Virus record (IMG/VR): IMGVR_UViG_3300007735_000481 | Span: 1 to 22,004 of that record | Direction: 5' to 3' (one strand) | Source of the DNA: a virus | DNA: 22,004 nt | Shown: in pieces, positions 10,401 to 20,079 of the stretch | How positions within the stretch are numbered: position 1 is the stretch's first letter | Layout: each line of letters starts with the position of its first letter | The notes under the pieces: model-generated | Told to the model about the DNA's origin: nothing | Seen by the model: the letters and a program-made list of their open reading frames with translations, nothing else | The model's database searches: none | Position numbers and translations under genes: made by a program

Positions 10401-12697
10401 GTAACGGTCTTAAGGTTAAAAAAAGAAGTGGGCACGTTGAGCAAATAGATCTTGATAAGATGCATTTAATGGTTGATGAGGCATGTAAGGGTCTTGCGGG
10501 GGTTTCTGCATCACAAGTTGAGATACAGTCTGGAATTCAGTTTTATGATGGAATTACCACTGCCGAAATTCAAGAAATTTTGATTCGTAGTGCAAGTGAT
10601 TTGATTGATTTAGAACACCCGAACTATCAATTTGTTGCTGCTCGTCTGCTTCTATTTTCAATTCGTAAGCAACTTTATGGAAAGATGCAGGAACTTCCAC
10701 ATCTTGAGAAACATATTATGGACTGCGTTTCCGCAGAAGTTTATGATTCTGATATTTACAATAAATACTCCAAGGAAGATATTGATGCTGTAAATTCATT
10801 TATTCGTCATGATCGTGATTATCTGTTTACCTATGCAGGATTGCGTCAGGTAGTTGATAAGTATCTTGTACAGGATCGCAGTGGTGGTGGAGTATATGAG
10901 ACTCCACAGTTTATGTACGTTATGATCGCACTCACAATATTTGCGGAATATCCCAAAGAAACCAGACTTTCATACGTCAAGAGGTATTATGACGCAATCT
11001 CAAGACACAGAATCAACATTCCGACACCAATCATGGCAGGGGTCAGAACTCCCCTTCGTCAATTTGCATCTTGTGTTCTGGTTGATGTTGATGACTCCCT
11101 CGATAGTATCTTTAGCAGTGATATGGCTATTGGCAGGTATGTCTCACAAAGGGCTGGTATCGGTATCAACGCAGGCAGAATCCGTGGCATCAACAGTAAA
11201 ATCCGAGGTGGAGAAGTTCAGCATACAGGTGTTATCCCATTCCTCAAAAAGTTTGAGTCAACTGTTAGGTGCTGCACACAAAACGGGATTCGTGGTGGAA
11301 GTGCTACTGTCCACTTTCCAATCTGGCACCAAGAAATAAATGATATATTAGTTCTCAAAAATAACAAAGGTACGGAAGACAATCGTGTTCGTAAGTTAGA
11401 TTATTCAATTCAGATTAGTAAAATATTTTATGAAAGATTTATTCAAGATGGTGAGATTACGATTTTCTCCCCACACGATGTACCTGGACTATATGATTCT
11501 TTCGGAACAGACAAGTTTGATGATTTATACGTTCAATACGAAAATGATTCGTCTGTTCCGTCAAAAAAGATTAAGGCACAAGAACTTATTCTCAGTCTTC
11601 TTAAAGAAAGAGCAGAAACGGGCAGAATCTATATTATGAATATAGATCACTGTAATACTCACAGTTCTTTTAAGGATAAGATTGAGATGAGTAATCTTTG
11701 TCAAGAAATCACATTACCAACAGTTCCGATTCAGCATATTGATGAGACCACAGGAGAAATTGCATTATGCATTCTTTCTGCTATCAACGTAGGTAAAGTC
11801 AAGTCCGATGATGAACTCGAAGAACTCTGTGAACTTTCTGTTCGTGCTCTCGAAGAACTCATTGATTATCAAAAGTATCCGGTCAAGGCAGCAGAAGTTG
11901 CTACAAAGGCACGAAGATCTCTTGGAATCGGTTATATTGGTCTGGCACATTATCTTGCTAAACTGGGGTTCAAATACGATTCTCAAGGAGCATGGGATGC
12001 GGTTCACGGACTTTCAGAATCCTTTCAATATTTTCTTCTCAAGGCATCAAATAAGATTGCTCAAGAAAAAGGATACTGTGAATCTTTTGGACGCACCAAG
12101 TATTCTGATGGTATTCTTCCTATCGATACCTATAAGAAAGATGTAGATGAAATATCTTCCGTAAAACTTAATCACGATTGGGAAGGACTCAGAGCATCGA
12201 TTCTGAAACACGGTCTCAGACACTCCACACTGTCCGCACAGATGCCTTCCGAGAGCAGTTCTGTGGTATCTAACGCAACTAATGGTATCGAACCTCCTCG
12301 GGGATTTCTGTCCATCAAGAAATCCAAGAAGGGTCCACTGAAACAAATTGTTCCCCAATACGCAACACTTAAAAATAATTATACGTTGCTCTGGGATATG
12401 AAAAGTAATGATGGATATATTAAAATTGTTGCGATGATTCAGAAATTTTTTGATCAGGCCATCTCTGGAAACTGGTCTTATAATCCAGAAAATTATCCAG
12501 ATAATGAAGTGCCAGTTTCAATAATGGCAAATGATTTTCTGACTACATACAAGTATGGGTGGAAAACTTCTTACTATCAGAATACCTATGACATTAAAAC
12601 TGATGAAGTGATAGAAGAAAAGAAACCCAGTTTAAATGACCTAATTCATGAGTTAAGCAAAGTAGAGGAGGGAGAGTGTGAATCTTGTACAATCTAA
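10397..12697 (+). CDS. nrdA: Ribonucleoside-diphosphate reductase class Ia, alpha subunit
   Basis: A 766-residue complete NrdA, which reduces ribonucleotides to deoxyribonucleotides. The N-terminal ATP-cone occupies about residues 5-95. Active-site residues are all visible: C226 (ASCVLVD) and C458 (ALCILS) as the redox pair, N433-L-C435-Q-E437 carrying the thiyl radical site, Y726-Y727 for radical transfer, the PSESS loop near 618, and the mobile C-terminal CESC pair (C761, C764) that is re-reduced by thioredoxin or glutaredoxin. The presence of an ATP-cone implies allosteric dATP/ATP control may be retained. It overlaps gp61 upstream by 4 bases and nrdB downstream by 20. Confidence 0.97.
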   Translation: MSNGLKVKKRSGHVEQIDLDKMHLMVDEACKGLAGVSASQVEIQSGIQFYDGITTAEIQEILIRSASDLIDLEHPNYQFVAARLLLFSIRKQLYGKMQELPHLEKHIMDCVSAEVYDSDIYNKYSKEDIDAVNSFIRHDRDYLFTYAGLRQVVDKYLVQDRSGGGVYETPQFMYVMIALTIFAEYPKETRLSYVKRYYDAISRHRINIPTPIMAGVRTPLRQFASCVLVDVDDSLDSIFSSDMAIGRYVSQRAGIGINAGRIRGINSKIRGGEVQHTGVIPFLKKFESTVRCCTQNGIRGGSATVHFPIWHQEINDILVLKNNKGTEDNRVRKLDYSIQISKIFYERFIQDGEITIFSPHDVPGLYDSFGTDKFDDLYVQYENDSSVPSKKIKAQELILSLLKERAETGRIYIMNIDHCNTHSSFKDKIEMSNLCQEITLPTVPIQHIDETTGEIALCILSAINVGKVKSDDELEELCELSVRALEELIDYQKYPVKAAEVATKARRSLGIGYIGLAHYLAKLGFKYDSQGAWDAVHGLSESFQYFLLKASNKIAQEKGYCESFGRTKYSDGILPIDTYKKDVDEISSVKLNHDWEGLRASILKHGLRHSTLSAQMPSESSSVVSNATNGIEPPRGFLSIKKSKKGPLKQIVPQYATLKNNYTLLWDMKSNDGYIKIVAMIQKFFDQAISGNWSYNPENYPDNEVPVSIMANDFLTTYKYGWKTSYYQNTYDIKTDEVIEEKKPSLNDLIHELSKVEEGECESCTI

Positions 12698-13925: not shown

Positions 13926-14666
13926 ATGTATTATGTTTATGAATTAATAGACCCGAGAGTTAATCTTCCTTTCTATATTGGAAAGGGTAAAGATAATCGG
14001 GTCTATTTTCATTTGTCGGAAAAATCAAGAGCAAAAAGTGAGAATAAGAGAAAATATAATAAAATACAAAAGATAAGAAAAGAAGGATATGAACCAGAAA
14101 TTAAAATAGTTGAATATTTTGAGAATGAAAATGATGCATATGAGTATGAGGAGCAATTGATAAAGAAATGTGGTAGAGTTAGATATGATGAAAATGGAAT
14201 ATTGATGAATATATGCGAAAATTCAAGGCCACCAAAATTAAAAGGAAGAACATATCAAGAAATATATGGGGATAAATGGGAAGAACAAATCCAGAAAAGA
14301 TTGGAAACAAAAAAGGAACGAGGAAATATGGGATTTACTGGAAAATCTCATACTGAAGAAAGTAAGAAAAAAACTTCCTTAAAAGTATCTGGTAAAAATA
14401 ATCCTAATTATGGGAAAAAGCATTCTAAAGAAACTCTTGAAAAAATTAGTTCTTCCTTGAAAGAACAATTCAAGAACGGAAGAAGAAAAAATAATACTTC
14501 AGTAACTTATCTTTTAACAAGTCCTTCTGGAGAAAATTTTAAAGTTTTTGGGGAACTTAAGAAATTTTGCAATCAAAATAAAATATCATATGCAACTATG
14601 CACGCAGCAATTCTTTATGATAGAAAAGGGCCAAGAAAAAATGGATGGAGTATTGAGAAAGTTTAG
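13926..14666 (+). CDS. GIY-YIG homing endonuclease inserted behind nrdB
   Basis: A 246-residue free-standing homing endonuclease. The GIY-YIG core is at the N-terminus: YYVYEL (2-7), FYIGKG (16-21), Arg25, and a catalytic Glu around 75-76 (YEYEEQL). Downstream are DNA-binding modules of NUMOD3 type (SGKNNPNYGKKHSKETLEKI) and a C-terminal helix-turn-helix-like part ending NGWSIEKV. The gene is AT-rich relative to nrdB and has its own late promoter, as T4 endonuclease genes often do. The likely cleavage target is the nrdB 3' end or its intergenic region in phages without the insert; this is inferred from position. Confidence 0.9.
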   Translation: MYYVYELIDPRVNLPFYIGKGKDNRVYFHLSEKSRAKSENKRKYNKIQKIRKEGYEPEIKIVEYFENENDAYEYEEQLIKKCGRVRYDENGILMNICENSRPPKLKGRTYQEIYGDKWEEQIQKRLETKKERGNMGFTGKSHTEESKKKTSLKVSGKNNPNYGKKHSKETLEKISSSLKEQFKNGRRKNNTSVTYLLTSPSGENFKVFGELKKFCNQNKISYATMHAAILYDRKGPRKNGWSIEKV

Positions 14667-15154: not shown

Positions 15155-15319
15155 ATGCCAAGAAATGAAATGAGTAAAGACGAACTCAAAGTTCGTGTAT
15201 TGAAATTAAAACATAAGTTATATGAAGATCAAGTAAATCAACTTATTACGAATCCCAAGGTTCTGGCTCATAAATATTTGGACGAAGTTCTTAACATTAT
15301 TGATGAGTATAGGTATTAA
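15155..15319 (+). CDS. Small hypothetical protein (54 aa)
   Basis: ATG at 15155 begins directly after the terminator T-tract and encodes a charged helical protein (MPRNEMSKDELKVRVLKLKH ... LDEVLNIIDEYRY). The composition and third-base use match core phage genes rather than the flanking endonucleases. The stop overlaps by 4 bases with the convergent antisense endonuclease. There is no good Shine-Dalgarno sequence because of the T-tract; the second Met (15170) is another possible start. Function unknown. Confidence 0.6.
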   Translation: MPRNEMSKDELKVRVLKLKHKLYEDQVNQLITNPKVLAHKYLDEVLNIIDEYRY

Positions 15320-16014
15320 ATTAAAAATATAATACCCTCCTCTAATTGTTTCTTATATTTTTGAAATCCCACTTTATTGTCTTTCATCCATTCAGTTACA
15401 CTTTTCCAAGTTTTAGTTCCATCACTAATCTTATGTCTCCTGGAATTTAAAAGTTTATTTTTATGCTCTTCTGATAGTTTTGTTCCATACATAGGATTTC
15501 CTTCACCAGAATACATTTCACTCAATTTTTGTCTAACATCTGGTCTTTTAGCAGGATTGTTATCGCCAGTCATAAGTTTTCGTTTATCTTCTCTATACTT
15601 ATCATTTCTCAAAACAACCTCATAAATTCCTGCTCTTTCGCTTACAAAAAATCTACCCTCAATATTTGTGTTATAATAATCATCAGTCATTAGAACATCT
15701 CTTTTGAATTGTTCCATAGTTTCATAATAAGACATAGATTTTTTATGAGGGCATAAGTAAAGTATTTCTCTTAAGAATTTATCTCCTCCTAAAAGTTTTA
15801 CATCTTCATTTAATTCATCACAGGAACCAAAATAATTTTTCCAATCACTTTCTTTTGTTTTTCTGCGACCAGTTTTTTTATCTTTTCTTCTTGACCAAAA
15901 AGATTTTTTACCAATATATTTTCTATCATTTGTTAAATTTGTTATCAGATAAACAAATCCTTCTATGCCTTTAGGAGCATCTATAAAATCTTCGTCGTTA
16001 TATTTCCAAGTCAT
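15316..16014 (-). CDS. GIY-YIG homing endonuclease on the minus strand
   Basis: The only clear minus-strand gene. The product from ATG at 16014 is 232 residues: GFVYLITNLTNDRKYIGKK (19-37) holds the GIY and YIG strands, with Arg42 following. The C-terminal half has a NUMOD3-type repeat (GEGNPMYGTKLSEEHKNKLL) and TKTWKSVTEWMKDNKVG, a NUMOD/helix-turn-helix-like DNA-binding end. An upstream ATG at 16032 is in frame, but the late promoter at 16046-16039 would start RNA at about 16033, leaving no leader. ATG 16014 has GAAGAAAG upstream and is preferred. The gene converges on the small gene before it and diverges from the one after it. Confidence 0.88.
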   Translation of the reverse strand: MTWKYNDEDFIDAPKGIEGFVYLITNLTNDRKYIGKKSFWSRRKDKKTGRRKTKESDWKNYFGSCDELNEDVKLLGGDKFLREILYLCPHKKSMSYYETMEQFKRDVLMTDDYYNTNIEGRFFVSERAGIYEVVLRNDKYREDKRKLMTGDNNPAKRPDVRQKLSEMYSGEGNPMYGTKLSEEHKNKLLNSRRHKISDGTKTWKSVTEWMKDNKVGFQKYKKQLEEGIIFLI

Positions 16015-16038
16015 AGAAATACTTTCTTCCATTAAAAT

Positions 16039-16448: not shown

Positions 16449-17177
16449 GTGGAAGATGCCCTTCGAGAGAGGTGGTATACCCCTCTTCTATACGGATGCC
16501 GAATTCTATTAAACTTAATGCTATTTTCAACAATTACACTCCTTTCAGTTTTAACTGCGTTTAATTCACCACTACTAATACCAGTGAGTGATCCACCAGT
16601 TCCTGAGAAAGAAAGTTTAGAACTTACTGTTCAAGAACTTCCAAATCAGAAAGACACCAAATCTGAAAAACTAAACATTACAGAAACGAAGGTCGAAAAT
16701 AAAGAAAAGATTTGGATATGTAAGGGGTGTAATCAAACAGAAACTTATGCTTTGAATTTCTTGCAAAAACAAGGAATCAAAGATAAGAATGCCCTTGCCA
16801 CCATTATGGGAAACATAAAACAGGAATCTGGATTTGTTCCCAATATTTGTGAAGGTGGTGCAAGAATAAAATATGAGTCTTGTAGATCCGGTGGATTTGG
16901 AATTATCCAATTTACAGATGCAGCAAGATATGATGGTTTAGGTAAATTTGCTTATCATACTGGAGGAAATCCATCTTCAATTGATACCCAACTTAAATAT
17001 ATGTTACATGAAGTTGATTGGAAAATGATTGAACCAAGAATGAAAACTCCTGGCAAATCTATTAACCAGTATATGTATTATGCTAGTAAGTGGATTCGTT
17101 GGGGCCATCATGGTGCAAGAACTGATTTTGCTTATAATTATTCTCGTAAATTAATTCTTACTGAAGTGAGTTCCTAA
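16449..17177 (+). CDS. Membrane-anchored phage tail lysozyme-type protein (chimeric)
   Basis: A 242-residue protein from GTG 16449. Residues about 17-38 form a hydrophobic signal-anchor (ILLNLMLFSTITLLSVLTAF), followed by a Pro/Glu/Lys linker and CKGC at 91-94. Residues about 100-235 form a phage tail lysozyme-type domain: ALNFLQKQGI, then ALATIMGNIKQESGF with probable catalytic Glu126, FGIIQFTDAARYDGLG, and WIRWGHHGARTDFAYNY. It likely cuts peptidoglycan on the periplasmic side during lysis or infection. The first 60 bases have core codon use, while the rest is AT-rich. A second, diverged 3' end (about 60% identical residues by eye) lies after the next gene. Confidence 0.83.
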   Translation: MEDALRERWYTPLLYGCRILLNLMLFSTITLLSVLTAFNSPLLIPVSDPPVPEKESLELTVQELPNQKDTKSEKLNITETKVENKEKIWICKGCNQTETYALNFLQKQGIKDKNALATIMGNIKQESGFVPNICEGGARIKYESCRSGGFGIIQFTDAARYDGLGKFAYHTGGNPSSIDTQLKYMLHEVDWKMIEPRMKTPGKSINQYMYYASKWIRWGHHGARTDFAYNYSRKLILTEVSS

Positions 17178-17281: not shown

Positions 17282-17938
17282 ATGAAACATTTTTATGTCT
17301 ATTATTCCTATGAGGAATATGGAAGAGGATATATTGGAAAAAGAGAATGTAAGTGTCTTCCAGAAGAAGATATAAGTTATTTTGGAAGCTTTCACGATAA
17401 AACTTTTCGTCCTACTCAAAAAATTATATTAGAAACTTTTGATAGTGTGGATAAAGCACTTGAAGCAGAATGTGCTCTTCACAACTTTTATGAAATAGAT
17501 AAAAATCTACACTTTGTAAATAGAGCAAAACAAACTTCTACTGGATTTTATTACAACAAAGGTCCCGGTAAAGAATCAAATAAGAAAAGAAGTGAGATGA
17601 TGAAAACTAAATACAATCCTATGAGTAATCCAGAATTAAAAGAGAAAGCAAGACAAAACTTAATTAAGTCATTAAATACACCTGAAGTAAGAAAAAGAAA
17701 AATTGAATCTGCAAAAATATCCCATAACCGTCCAGAAGTAGTTGAGAAGCATAGAAAAGCAGCAATCAAATCTCATCAAAATCCAGAAACAAAAAGAAAG
17801 CACATTGAGGCAAAACTTGGTGAGAAAAATCCTTGTTATGGTAAAAGGTGGATTACAAATGGAAAAGAAAACAAATATATAAACTCTATTGATGAACTTC
17901 CAATTTCTTTTTGGTATGGAAGAACTCAAAAGGTATAA
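17282..17938 (+). CDS. GIY-YIG homing endonuclease splitting the lysozyme locus
   Basis: A 218-residue GIY-YIG endonuclease: FYVYYSYEEYGRGYIGKRE (4-22) holds the two signature strands, followed by a conserved-type ISYFGSFHDKTF segment and an acidic residue in EAECALHNFYE. The C-terminal half is a lysine-rich DNA-binding region with NPELKEKARQNLIKS and NRPEVVEKHRKAA repeats, then a YGKRWITNGKENKYI module. Its last codons (QKV, stop) coincide with the point where lysozyme homology resumes, so the insertion junction lies at its stop codon. It is AT-rich and has its own late promoter. Confidence 0.88.
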   Translation: MKHFYVYYSYEEYGRGYIGKRECKCLPEEDISYFGSFHDKTFRPTQKIILETFDSVDKALEAECALHNFYEIDKNLHFVNRAKQTSTGFYYNKGPGKESNKKRSEMMKTKYNPMSNPELKEKARQNLIKSLNTPEVRKRKIESAKISHNRPEVVEKHRKAAIKSHQNPETKRKHIEAKLGEKNPCYGKRWITNGKENKYINSIDELPISFWYGRTQKV

Positions 17939-18173
17939 TGGTTTAGGAAATCATGCTGCCCGTCTTGGTGGTAGTCCATCTTCACTTGATACTCAACTCA
18001 ACTATATGTTGAATGAGAGTGACTGGAAGATGATTGAGAGGGGAATGAAGACCCCTGGAAGATCCATTGACAGTTATATGGGTCTTGCATCAAGATGGAT
18101 ACGTTGGGGGCATCATGGTGCTCGTACCGACTTTGCCTATCGTTATGCTAACAAGATGGTACTTGATACCTAA
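17931..18173 (+). pseudogene. Orphan 3' fragment of a tail lysozyme gene
   Basis: An open frame from AGG 17931 encodes 80 residues (RYNGLGNHAARLGGSP ... WIRWGHHGARTDFAYRYANK), matching residues 160-242 of the upstream lysozyme-type protein, with about three fifths identical by eye. It lacks the catalytic Glu region. The codon use (GCC, CTC, GAC, GGG) is that of core phage genes, unlike the AT-rich upstream copy. It is best read as the original resident gene's 3' end, cut off by the endonuclease cassette. An in-frame ATG at 17889 exists, but the 14 codons before the homology are endonuclease sequence in another frame. A terminator follows it. Confidence 0.78.
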
Positions 18174-18867: not shown

Positions 18868-18955
18868 GGGTTTATGGGCAGCAGGAGTCCAAACCTTGTG
18901 TAAGACTCACCCCTCCTATGCCTCTCAACGATGCACAAACCAGGAGGTCTCTTAA
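18863..18955 (+). CDS. Possible 30-residue peptide
   Basis: ATGATG at 18863 opens a short frame (MMGLWAAGVQTLCKTHPSYA...) whose TAA ends at the base before tRNA-Arg. There is no clear ribosome-binding site, and the predicted tRNA promoter would start inside it. It could be conserved leader sequence rather than a gene. Confidence 0.25.
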   Translation: MMGLWAAGVQTLCKTHPSYASQRCTNQEVS

Positions 18956-19236
18956 GGGCACGTAGCATAATGGATAATGCAGCATCCTTCAATAGGAGCC
19001 TTATTTGGGAAACCTTATAAGTGAAACTTCTCAAATTCGGGGAACTCTAAAGTCTTTTGACTAAGACAATCCCGAGCCAAGCATCGCAAGATGAAGGTGT
19101 AGAGACTTGACGGGAAGTGCCTAAATCACTTTGATGATATGGTAAAGAGAAAGTCCAGACCACAAACAGAAATGGCGGGGAAATCCGTAGTGGTAAGCTA
19201 AGATGTCGATTGGGAGTTCGACCCTCTCCGTGCCTG
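18956..19236 (+). tRNA. tRNA-Arg(TCT) interrupted by a group I intron
   Basis: The 5' exon is 18956-18989 and the 3' exon 19198-19236. Joined, they give a full cloverleaf: acceptor GGGCACG/CGTGCCT, D-stem GCAT/ATGC, anticodon stem GCATC/GATGT, loop CTTCTAA with anticodon TCT, T-stem GGGAG/CTCTC with loop TTCGACC, discriminator G. CCA is not encoded. The intron separates U34 from C35 of the anticodon, so the tRNA cannot work until spliced. It would read AGA codons, which are frequent in these AT-rich genes. Confidence 0.9.
18990..19197 (+). ncRNA. Group I intron (IC3-like, cyanobacterial tRNA type)
   Basis: A 208-base intron without an internal gene. The exon ends in U and the intron in G (19197). 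The exon end CUU can pair with the intron's GAG (18996-18998), with the required U-G at the splice site. Conserved group I core segments are visible: CAAATTCGGGGAAC, GACAATCCCGAGCCAA, GGTGTAGAGACTTGACGGG and AGAGAAAGTCCAGA. These closely resemble the cyanobacterial/plastid trnL(UAA) intron core. Local hairpins fit P5 (AGTC-TTTT-GACT), P6 (CATC-GCAA-GATG) and P8 (AAGTG/CACTT). The insertion position (after U34) is the same as in trnL(UAA), arguing for descent from that intron family. Confidence 0.9.
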
Positions 19237-19239
19237 TTA

Positions 19240-19278
19240 GAACCTTTTAGTGTATAAATAATAGTAACTAAAAGGTTC
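19240..19278 (+). promoter_or_regulatory. Perfect inverted repeat enclosing the HNH gene's late promoter
   Basis: GAACCTTTTAG (19240-19250) and CTAAAAGGTTC (19268-19278) are perfect 11-base complements. The late promoter lies in the loop, and the 3' arm contains AAAAGG, the only good ribosome-binding site for ATG 19283. Confidence 0.85.
19253..19260 (+). promoter_or_regulatory. T4-type late promoter TATAAATA
   Basis: Exact consensus, 22 bases before ATG 19283. RNA would start at about 19266, just before the 3' arm of the inverted repeat. Confidence 0.82.
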
Positions 19279-19753: not shown

Positions 19754-19781
19754 CATCATCTCATAAATCGTGCTATAAATA
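19750..19781 (+). promoter_or_regulatory. Overlapping sigma70 and late promoters of the tmRNA gene
   Basis: TTGACA (19750-19755), 18-base spacer, TATAAA (19774-19779). The same bases 19774-19781 read TATAAATA, an exact late promoter. Both predict a start at about 19786-19788, so the tmRNA could be made through the whole infection. Confidence 0.78.
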
Positions 19782-19785
19782 TTGA

Positions 19786-19980
19786 TGTTCAAGAGGATAA
19801 GAATTCTGATGCTTCGGACTCGGGGGCAGTACCCGAATACTCCACTATAAGGGGTATCACAAGTTTCGACGGGGTATAAAGGTTTTATCTGTTGACGGAA
19901 CAAACAAACAAACGCAAACAAAATTGTTGCATTTTCGAGGACTTCTGTACCTTCTTTGGTATAGAACTCTGACGAATCTC
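19786..19980 (+). ncRNA. ssrA: Circularly permuted two-piece tmRNA
   Basis: tmRNA frees stalled ribosomes and tags the nascent protein. The acceptor piece comes first: T-stem TCGGG (19820-19824) / CCCGA (19832-19836), loop GGCAGTA, acceptor strand ATACTCC (19837-19843), discriminator A. After about 6 bases comes the coding piece: acceptor strand GGGGTAT (19851-19857), pairing all seven bases with G3-U70, the alanine identity pair, then AGTTTCGACGGGG, the conserved tmRNA D-loop region. TTTATC (19884-19889) can pair with GATAAG (19796-19801) as helix P2. The tag frame 19914-19961 encodes ANKIVAFSRTSVPSLV, stop TAG at 19962. The start matches the picocyanobacterial tag (ANKIVSFSRQTAPVAA, from memory) and has the same length. 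Exact processed ends are not known. Confidence 0.9.
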
Positions 19981-19983
19981 AAG

Positions 19984-20003
19984 GGGGCACTCGTGCCCCT
20001 TTT
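19984..20003 (+). terminator. Rho-independent terminator after the tmRNA
   Basis: Stem GGGGCA (19984-19989) / TGCCCC (19994-19999), CTCG loop, four T's. tRNA-Thr starts 5 bases later. Confidence 0.82.
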
Positions 20004-20007
20004 CTAT

Positions 20008-20079
20008 GCCCTTGCAGCTCAGTGGTAGAGCAACGCTTTTGTAAAGCGAAGGTCATCGGTTCAAATCCGTTTGAGGGCT
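20008..20079 (+). tRNA. tRNA-Thr(TGT)
   Basis: 72 bases: acceptor GCCCTTG/TGAGGGC, D-arm GCTC/GAGC, anticodon loop TTTGTAA (TGT at 20040-20042), T-loop TTCAAAT, discriminator T, no CCA. Mismatches occur at the outer anticodon-stem pair (A-A) and in the T-stem (T-T). It reads ACA and related codons. Confidence 0.9.

Follow-up and report, generated by a model that had tools for sequence, protein, structure and literature searches.

The tRNA-Arg(UCU) gene at 18956-19236 of the window (the whole 22-kb, 22,004-nt IMG/VR virus fragment analysed here) is split after U34 by a group I intron that contains no open reading frame (ORF), and the gene that follows encodes a free-standing HNH endonuclease. 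Comparison with related loci makes it probable that this is a splicing, mobile intron in a phage tRNA that the neighbouring HNH enzyme moves, i.e. a case of collaborative homing. The intron had been recognised in a sequence-only reading of this DNA, and its coordinates proved exact to the base. The linkage of a phage-borne tRNA intron to an HNH gene, which lies outside those coordinates, and the wide occurrence of such introns both go beyond that reading, and the linkage is the more interesting part.

A split tRNA-Arg(UCU) in a T4-like cyanophage

The source of the window is a T4-like cyanophage, its nrdA/nrdB and primase genes being 72-76% identical to those of Synechococcus phages. With introns allowed, ARAGORN reports a tRNA-Arg(tct) at 18956-19236, interrupted from tRNA position 35 onwards by 208 nt of intron; the default run, with introns disallowed, misses this gene. 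Its parts are:

18956-18989, + strand: tRNA-Arg(UCU) 5' exon, 34 nt, ending CUU, with U34 (ARAGORN with introns)
18987-18998, + strand: P1, exon CUU plus C with intron GGAG, U.G at the 5' splice site (sequence, helix definition)
18990-19197, + strand: ORF-less group I intron, 208 nt, ending in G (RF00028, 67.1 bits; covariation)
19026-19155, + strand: catalytic core P3-P8 (RF00028 alignment, pair counts)
19026-19032/19112-19118, + strand: P3
about 19037-19041/19071-19075, + strand: P4
19104-19107/19152-19155, + strand: P7; P6 and P8 also fall in the core
19159-19194, + strand: P9 region (pair counts)
19198-19236, + strand: tRNA-Arg 3' exon, 39 nt, starting CUAAG (ARAGORN with introns)

Joined, the exons give a normal 73-nt tRNA with the anticodon loop CUUCUAA, which places the insertion after U34, as in trnL(UAA); intronless homologues are found in cyanophages S-CAM1, SynMITS9220M01 and S-CREM1. 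The clean tRNA, the insertion point and the pairing of exon CUU with intron GAG in P1 had all been described from the sequence, and all three stand; in P1 a U.G, as is usual, marks the splice site, and the intron terminates in G. The Rfam group I model (RF00028, gathering score 50) matches 18980-19179 over its full length (67.1 bits, E 2.6e-15), and the hallmarks of a group I intron are present, namely a P3-P8 core with P7 and P4-P6, the U.G of P1 and the terminal G. Each of the 51 phage Arg(UCU) introns compared has a guide of GGAG or GGGG and a final G. Free folding of the whole precursor is weak (minimum free energy, z -1.58), and covariation, assessed over 22 to 33 relatives, was therefore used as the evidence for structure: among 22 distinct phage Arg(UCU) introns, helices P1-P9 contain 92.7% standard pairs, with two-sided changes at 25 pairs, whilst P5b and the P1 wobble column, where length or alignment varies, are without support as drawn.

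We propose that the precursor ribozyme would fold, pair exon CUU with the guide GAG and self-splice with a guanosine cofactor, restoring a tRNA that reads AGA. AGA makes up 60% of the Arg codons in the main ORFs of the window, which fits the earlier suggestion that splicing decides whether the phage tRNA can read these codons.

Just upstream of the tRNA lies a conserved RNA element, a neighbour and not part of the intron:

18912-18948, + strand: abiF RNA motif (RF03085, 49.3 bits)

Relatives keep this block whether or not they have the intron, and it stands in front of tRNA genes in S-SRM01, S-CREM1 and numerous IMG/VR loci. The window also carries a permuted (two-piece type) tmRNA at 19773-20022 (RF04321, 78.6 bits; RF01851, 71.1 bits), with its resume codon GCA at 19914 and the tag ANKIVAFSRTSVPSLV; it is phage-borne and of the picocyanobacterial kind. 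A tmRNA is likewise present in one of the compared loci (L049, at 12294-12588; L-numbers are the labels of these loci).

The linked HNH gene and its putative control region

The endonuclease gene and the elements in front of it are:

19240-19278, + strand: 12-bp hairpin GAACCTTTTAGT/ACTAAAAGGTTC, upstream of the HNH start codon, with the ribosome-binding stretch in its 3' arm
19253-19260, + strand: T4-type late promoter motif TATAAATA, in the hairpin loop
19283-19753, + strand: HNH endonuclease gene, 156 aa (PF13391, 8e-10), outside the intron, 47 nt after the tRNA

The HNH domain scores 38.9 bits against PF13391, for which the cut-off is 21, and homologues that are 79-85% identical lie 44-49 nt after an intron-bearing tRNA-Arg(UCU) at about 25 IMG/VR loci. 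Where the exon sequence is identical, 22 of 23 intron-bearing genes are followed by HNH or a remnant of it (a deleted remnant in two of them, L098 and L117), as against 0 of 107 genes that have no intron (Fisher p 5e-24, an overstated value because the metagenome contigs are related and non-independent). A further 51 contigs have an intronless copy of the window's own tRNA type, and none of them has HNH (0 of the 42 with enough flank). The endonuclease gene is outside the intron and genetically linked to it, as expected of a collaborative pair. Among the carriers, L088 and L117 share T4-like cyanophage genes with the window, and L102 is nearest to the freshwater cyanophage S-SRM01.

Collaborative homing has phage precedent (PMC3984707), and the arrangement here resembles the known pair in that a T4-like cyanophage carries an ORF-less group I intron beside the gene of a free-standing endonuclease; the host gene, however, is a tRNA, and the intron site is a predicted target of the HNH enzyme. 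SegB of T-even phages is a free-standing homing endonuclease of the tRNA region (PMC13096335), and is thus also encoded among phage tRNA genes, but it belongs to the GIY-YIG type and its tRNA has no intron, whereas the HNH gene described here is linked to one. Elsewhere in the window, endonuclease-like genes with NUMOD3 lie at 13926-14666, 15316-16032 and 17282-17938, the first two being GIY-YIG and the second SegE-like. The C-terminal part of the ORF at 16449-17177 is repeated in the ORF at 17889-18173, across the endonuclease-like gene at 17282-17938, and L098 matches both copies.

The hairpin upstream of the HNH start folds with a z of -3.3, and none of 200 shuffles was as good; its pairs 7 and 8 keep pairing via two-sided changes in some relatives, the inner pairs being less regular. 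All of the 15 relatives in the alignment have ATAAATA, at -26 to -32 relative to the ATG. In T4 intron endonucleases such as I-TevI, a hairpin encloses both the start region and a late promoter, such that transcripts reading through are kept silent and those started late are translated. The window shares this layout of hairpin, start codon region and internal late promoter; it differs in that the HNH gene is outside the intron and its regulation is predicted. By analogy, we infer that translation of HNH may be controlled in the same manner: the hairpin would block it until late transcription starts inside the hairpin.

Once made, the HNH enzyme would cut intronless tRNA-Arg(UCU) alleles in a mixed infection, repair of the cut allele would copy the intron and the HNH gene together, and the intron would shield its own allele from the enzyme. 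The compared loci bear signs of stages that would complete such a homing cycle, in the form of empty sites, deleted HNH genes and decayed introns. The isolate S-SRM01, related to the carrier L102, has at the corresponding place an intact tRNA-Arg(UCU) with neither intron nor HNH; L098 and L117 keep the intron beside an HNH gene whose internal deletion has left only the ends; and in L324 and L325 (upstream of 3001) the intron is reduced to a remnant of about 47 nt in the anticodon loop of an apparently broken tRNA, with an intact HNH gene 90% identical to the window's. There are also loci with HNH (84%) beside an intronless tRNA-Arg (L335 and L336), and others with the intron and no HNH nearby (L072, L049 and L097); compared with the window, L049 is 97% identical in its tRNA exons and 86% in the intron. 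Between the window and L259 the exons share 64% identity, the intron 91% and HNH 85%, so that, judged by these identities, the intron and HNH outlast the identity of the tRNA. Simple co-conversion leaves one feature unaccounted for, in that the 3' exon, which lies between the intron and HNH, varies from cassette to cassette. With its naturally occurring stages that lack the intron, lack HNH or are decayed, the pair offers a ready system for asking how an intron and a free-standing endonuclease are joined into a single mobile element.

Does the HNH enzyme move the intron, or do the two only travel side by side? It could be that HNH has no part in moving the intron, which would splice all the same, and that HNH homes independently to the 3' side of phage tRNAs and accompanies the intron by proximity. 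Distant HNH relatives (47-67%) lie about 46-57 nt after tRNA-Arg, tRNA-Ile and others, often intronless; going by these neighbourhoods the family is a general tRNA neighbour, and since close and distant relatives alike (44-57 nt behind tRNAs of many kinds, several of them without an intron) show this habit, the window's enzyme may be aimed elsewhere than at the intron site. The unpaired loci, namely L335 and L336 on the one hand, and L049 and L097 on the other, fit such independence as well. Independent homing would, however, leave HNH at intronless copies of the same tRNA sequence too, and the contrast between 22 of 23 and 0 of 107 therefore makes this explanation rather unlikely. An extremely improbable explanation is that of a decayed, non-splicing intron in a dead tRNA: L324 and L325 show that the intron can decay, but the window's copy has a complete core and covarying helices, and its splice-site pairs and tRNA exons are intact.

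Where the intron came from

The sequence-only reading had derived the intron from a host trnL, and this part found no support on comparison. Two trees were built, one quick (194 introns) and one careful (78 introns), both from a sequence alignment of 142-160 columns, and their deep nodes are poorly resolved. The window intron falls in a phage-only Arg(UCU) clade with L259, L098, L251, L254 and L049 (support 99; 100/98), and the cyanobacterial trnL introns form a clade of their own on a long branch (100/100). The phylogeny suggested as a check thus keeps the intron apart from the cyanobacterial trnL(UAA) lineage, of which it may nonetheless be distant kin: a forced joint clade was unrejected (AU p 0.418), and this leaves room for an ancient link. 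As for the supposed match of the core to cyanobacterial trnL, what held is a bacterial tRNA-type group I core, the sequence being nearer to phage and non-cyanobacterial introns; in the alignment and tree the window intron, a candidate member of the IC3 subgroup, falls among bacterial tRNA introns.

The genomes of the likely hosts point the same way. We compared lists of permuted tmRNAs and of introns by eye, under strict filters, for 386 cyanobacterial genomes in all. None of the 56 genomes with a permuted tmRNA above cut-off (picocyanobacteria) had a group I match, whereas about 330 other cyanobacteria yielded a match in 109. In a separate search, no group I intron was found in 41 genomes of the picocyanobacterial family with permuted tmRNA, which is the likely-host family, and the Arg(UCU) 3' junction pattern occurred in none of the 386. 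Transfer of a host cyanobacterial trnL(UAA) intron into the phage tRNA-Arg, for which the identical insertion position, the P1 logic and the AU result speak, is very unlikely in view of the separate clades, the lack of an intron in 41 genomes of the likely-host family and the junction missing from 386 cyanobacterial genomes. The IC3-type trnL(UAA) introns of cyanobacteria and other bacteria do share with the window intron their position after U34 behind CUU, the lack of an ORF at ~200-280 nt and the same core helices, whereas the intron here sits in a phage-borne tRNA-Arg(UCU), in a separate clade, with differences in core sequence and an external HNH gene. The alphaproteobacterial tRNA-Arg(CCU) introns (Agrobacterium type) are likewise group I introns in the anticodon loop of a tRNA-Arg, but are inserted after the anticodon (exon ..CCT, then AA..), in a tRNA with another anticodon and on a bacterial chromosome.

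A phage trnL(UAA) intron would be a nearer and more economical candidate source than host trnL, and the same CUU logic fits it. One such phage intron, L114, lies in tRNA exons 98-99% identical to an intronless cyanophage tRNA-Leu, and trnL introns therefore exist in the same kind of phage. Phage trnL introns adjoin the window clade in the quick tree (aLRT 82); the careful tree is without resolution there. The intron belongs to a phage-borne family and was probably acquired from other phages.

Introns in phage tRNAs at large

A 2014 review stated that all phage introns known until then lay in protein-coding genes, despite the many phage tRNA genes (PMC3984707), and we found no paper on tRNA introns in cyanophages in the open-licence literature. 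A single pattern derived from the core nevertheless matched at least 120 stretches in IMG/VR, and brought to light dozens of group I introns in phage tRNAs. About half of the listed matches lie inside tRNAs, Arg(UCU) being commonest (at least 51, with a second pattern), followed by Leu(UAA) (at least 16). Among the matches listed, 46 of the 51 phage Arg(UCU) introns are inserted after U34 and 5 after U33 (L110, L116, L019, L045 and L082). In bacterial genomes a slightly looser pattern gave at least 118 stretches, mainly in Leu(UAA) (39), Arg(CCU) (23) and Met/CAU (10); none of those listed is a true Arg(UCU) intron. The single bacterial 'Arg(tct)' call (L193) was a miscall, its 5' exon ending GACTCTT and a TAATCAA stretch following. 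The isotypes SeC, Tyr(ata), His(atg) and Ser(aga) that ARAGORN gave to intron-bearing tRNAs are, in part, also splice-site miscalls; most of those with ACTT..AAAATC are Leu(UAA). No match covering most of the Arg(UCU) intron was found among 50,697 phage records in INPHARED; a group I intron does occur in a tRNA-Leu(UAA) of the 735-kb phage LR756501.

With dozens of these introns residing in phage tRNAs, the idea that phages are the vehicle by which tRNA introns have spread so patchily in bacteria becomes testable. We tentatively entertain a broader picture, perhaps somewhat short of an even chance, in which phages hold a large pool of self-splicing tRNA introns, most of it undescribed, and Arg(UCU) is a phage-specific site; the HNH enzyme would target the anticodon loop, making this collaborative homing in a tRNA, and the pool could serve as a source of introns for bacterial tRNAs. 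A practical caution follows as well, in that default tRNA scans miss phage tRNAs that are likely functional.

On a 281-kb contig (L055, 3526-5058), three intron-bearing tRNAs lie within about 1.5 kb, for Arg(UCU), Leu(UAA) and a third of ambiguous isotype. The remaining half or so of the first viral matches lie outside recognised tRNAs, most of them in a capsid-like protein gene: L002, L003, L016 and about 40 other viral loci carry closely related ORF-less group I introns in the apparent major capsid protein gene of marine phages, and in KT997847 (L123) the capsid gene that contains the intron is annotated as two pieces.
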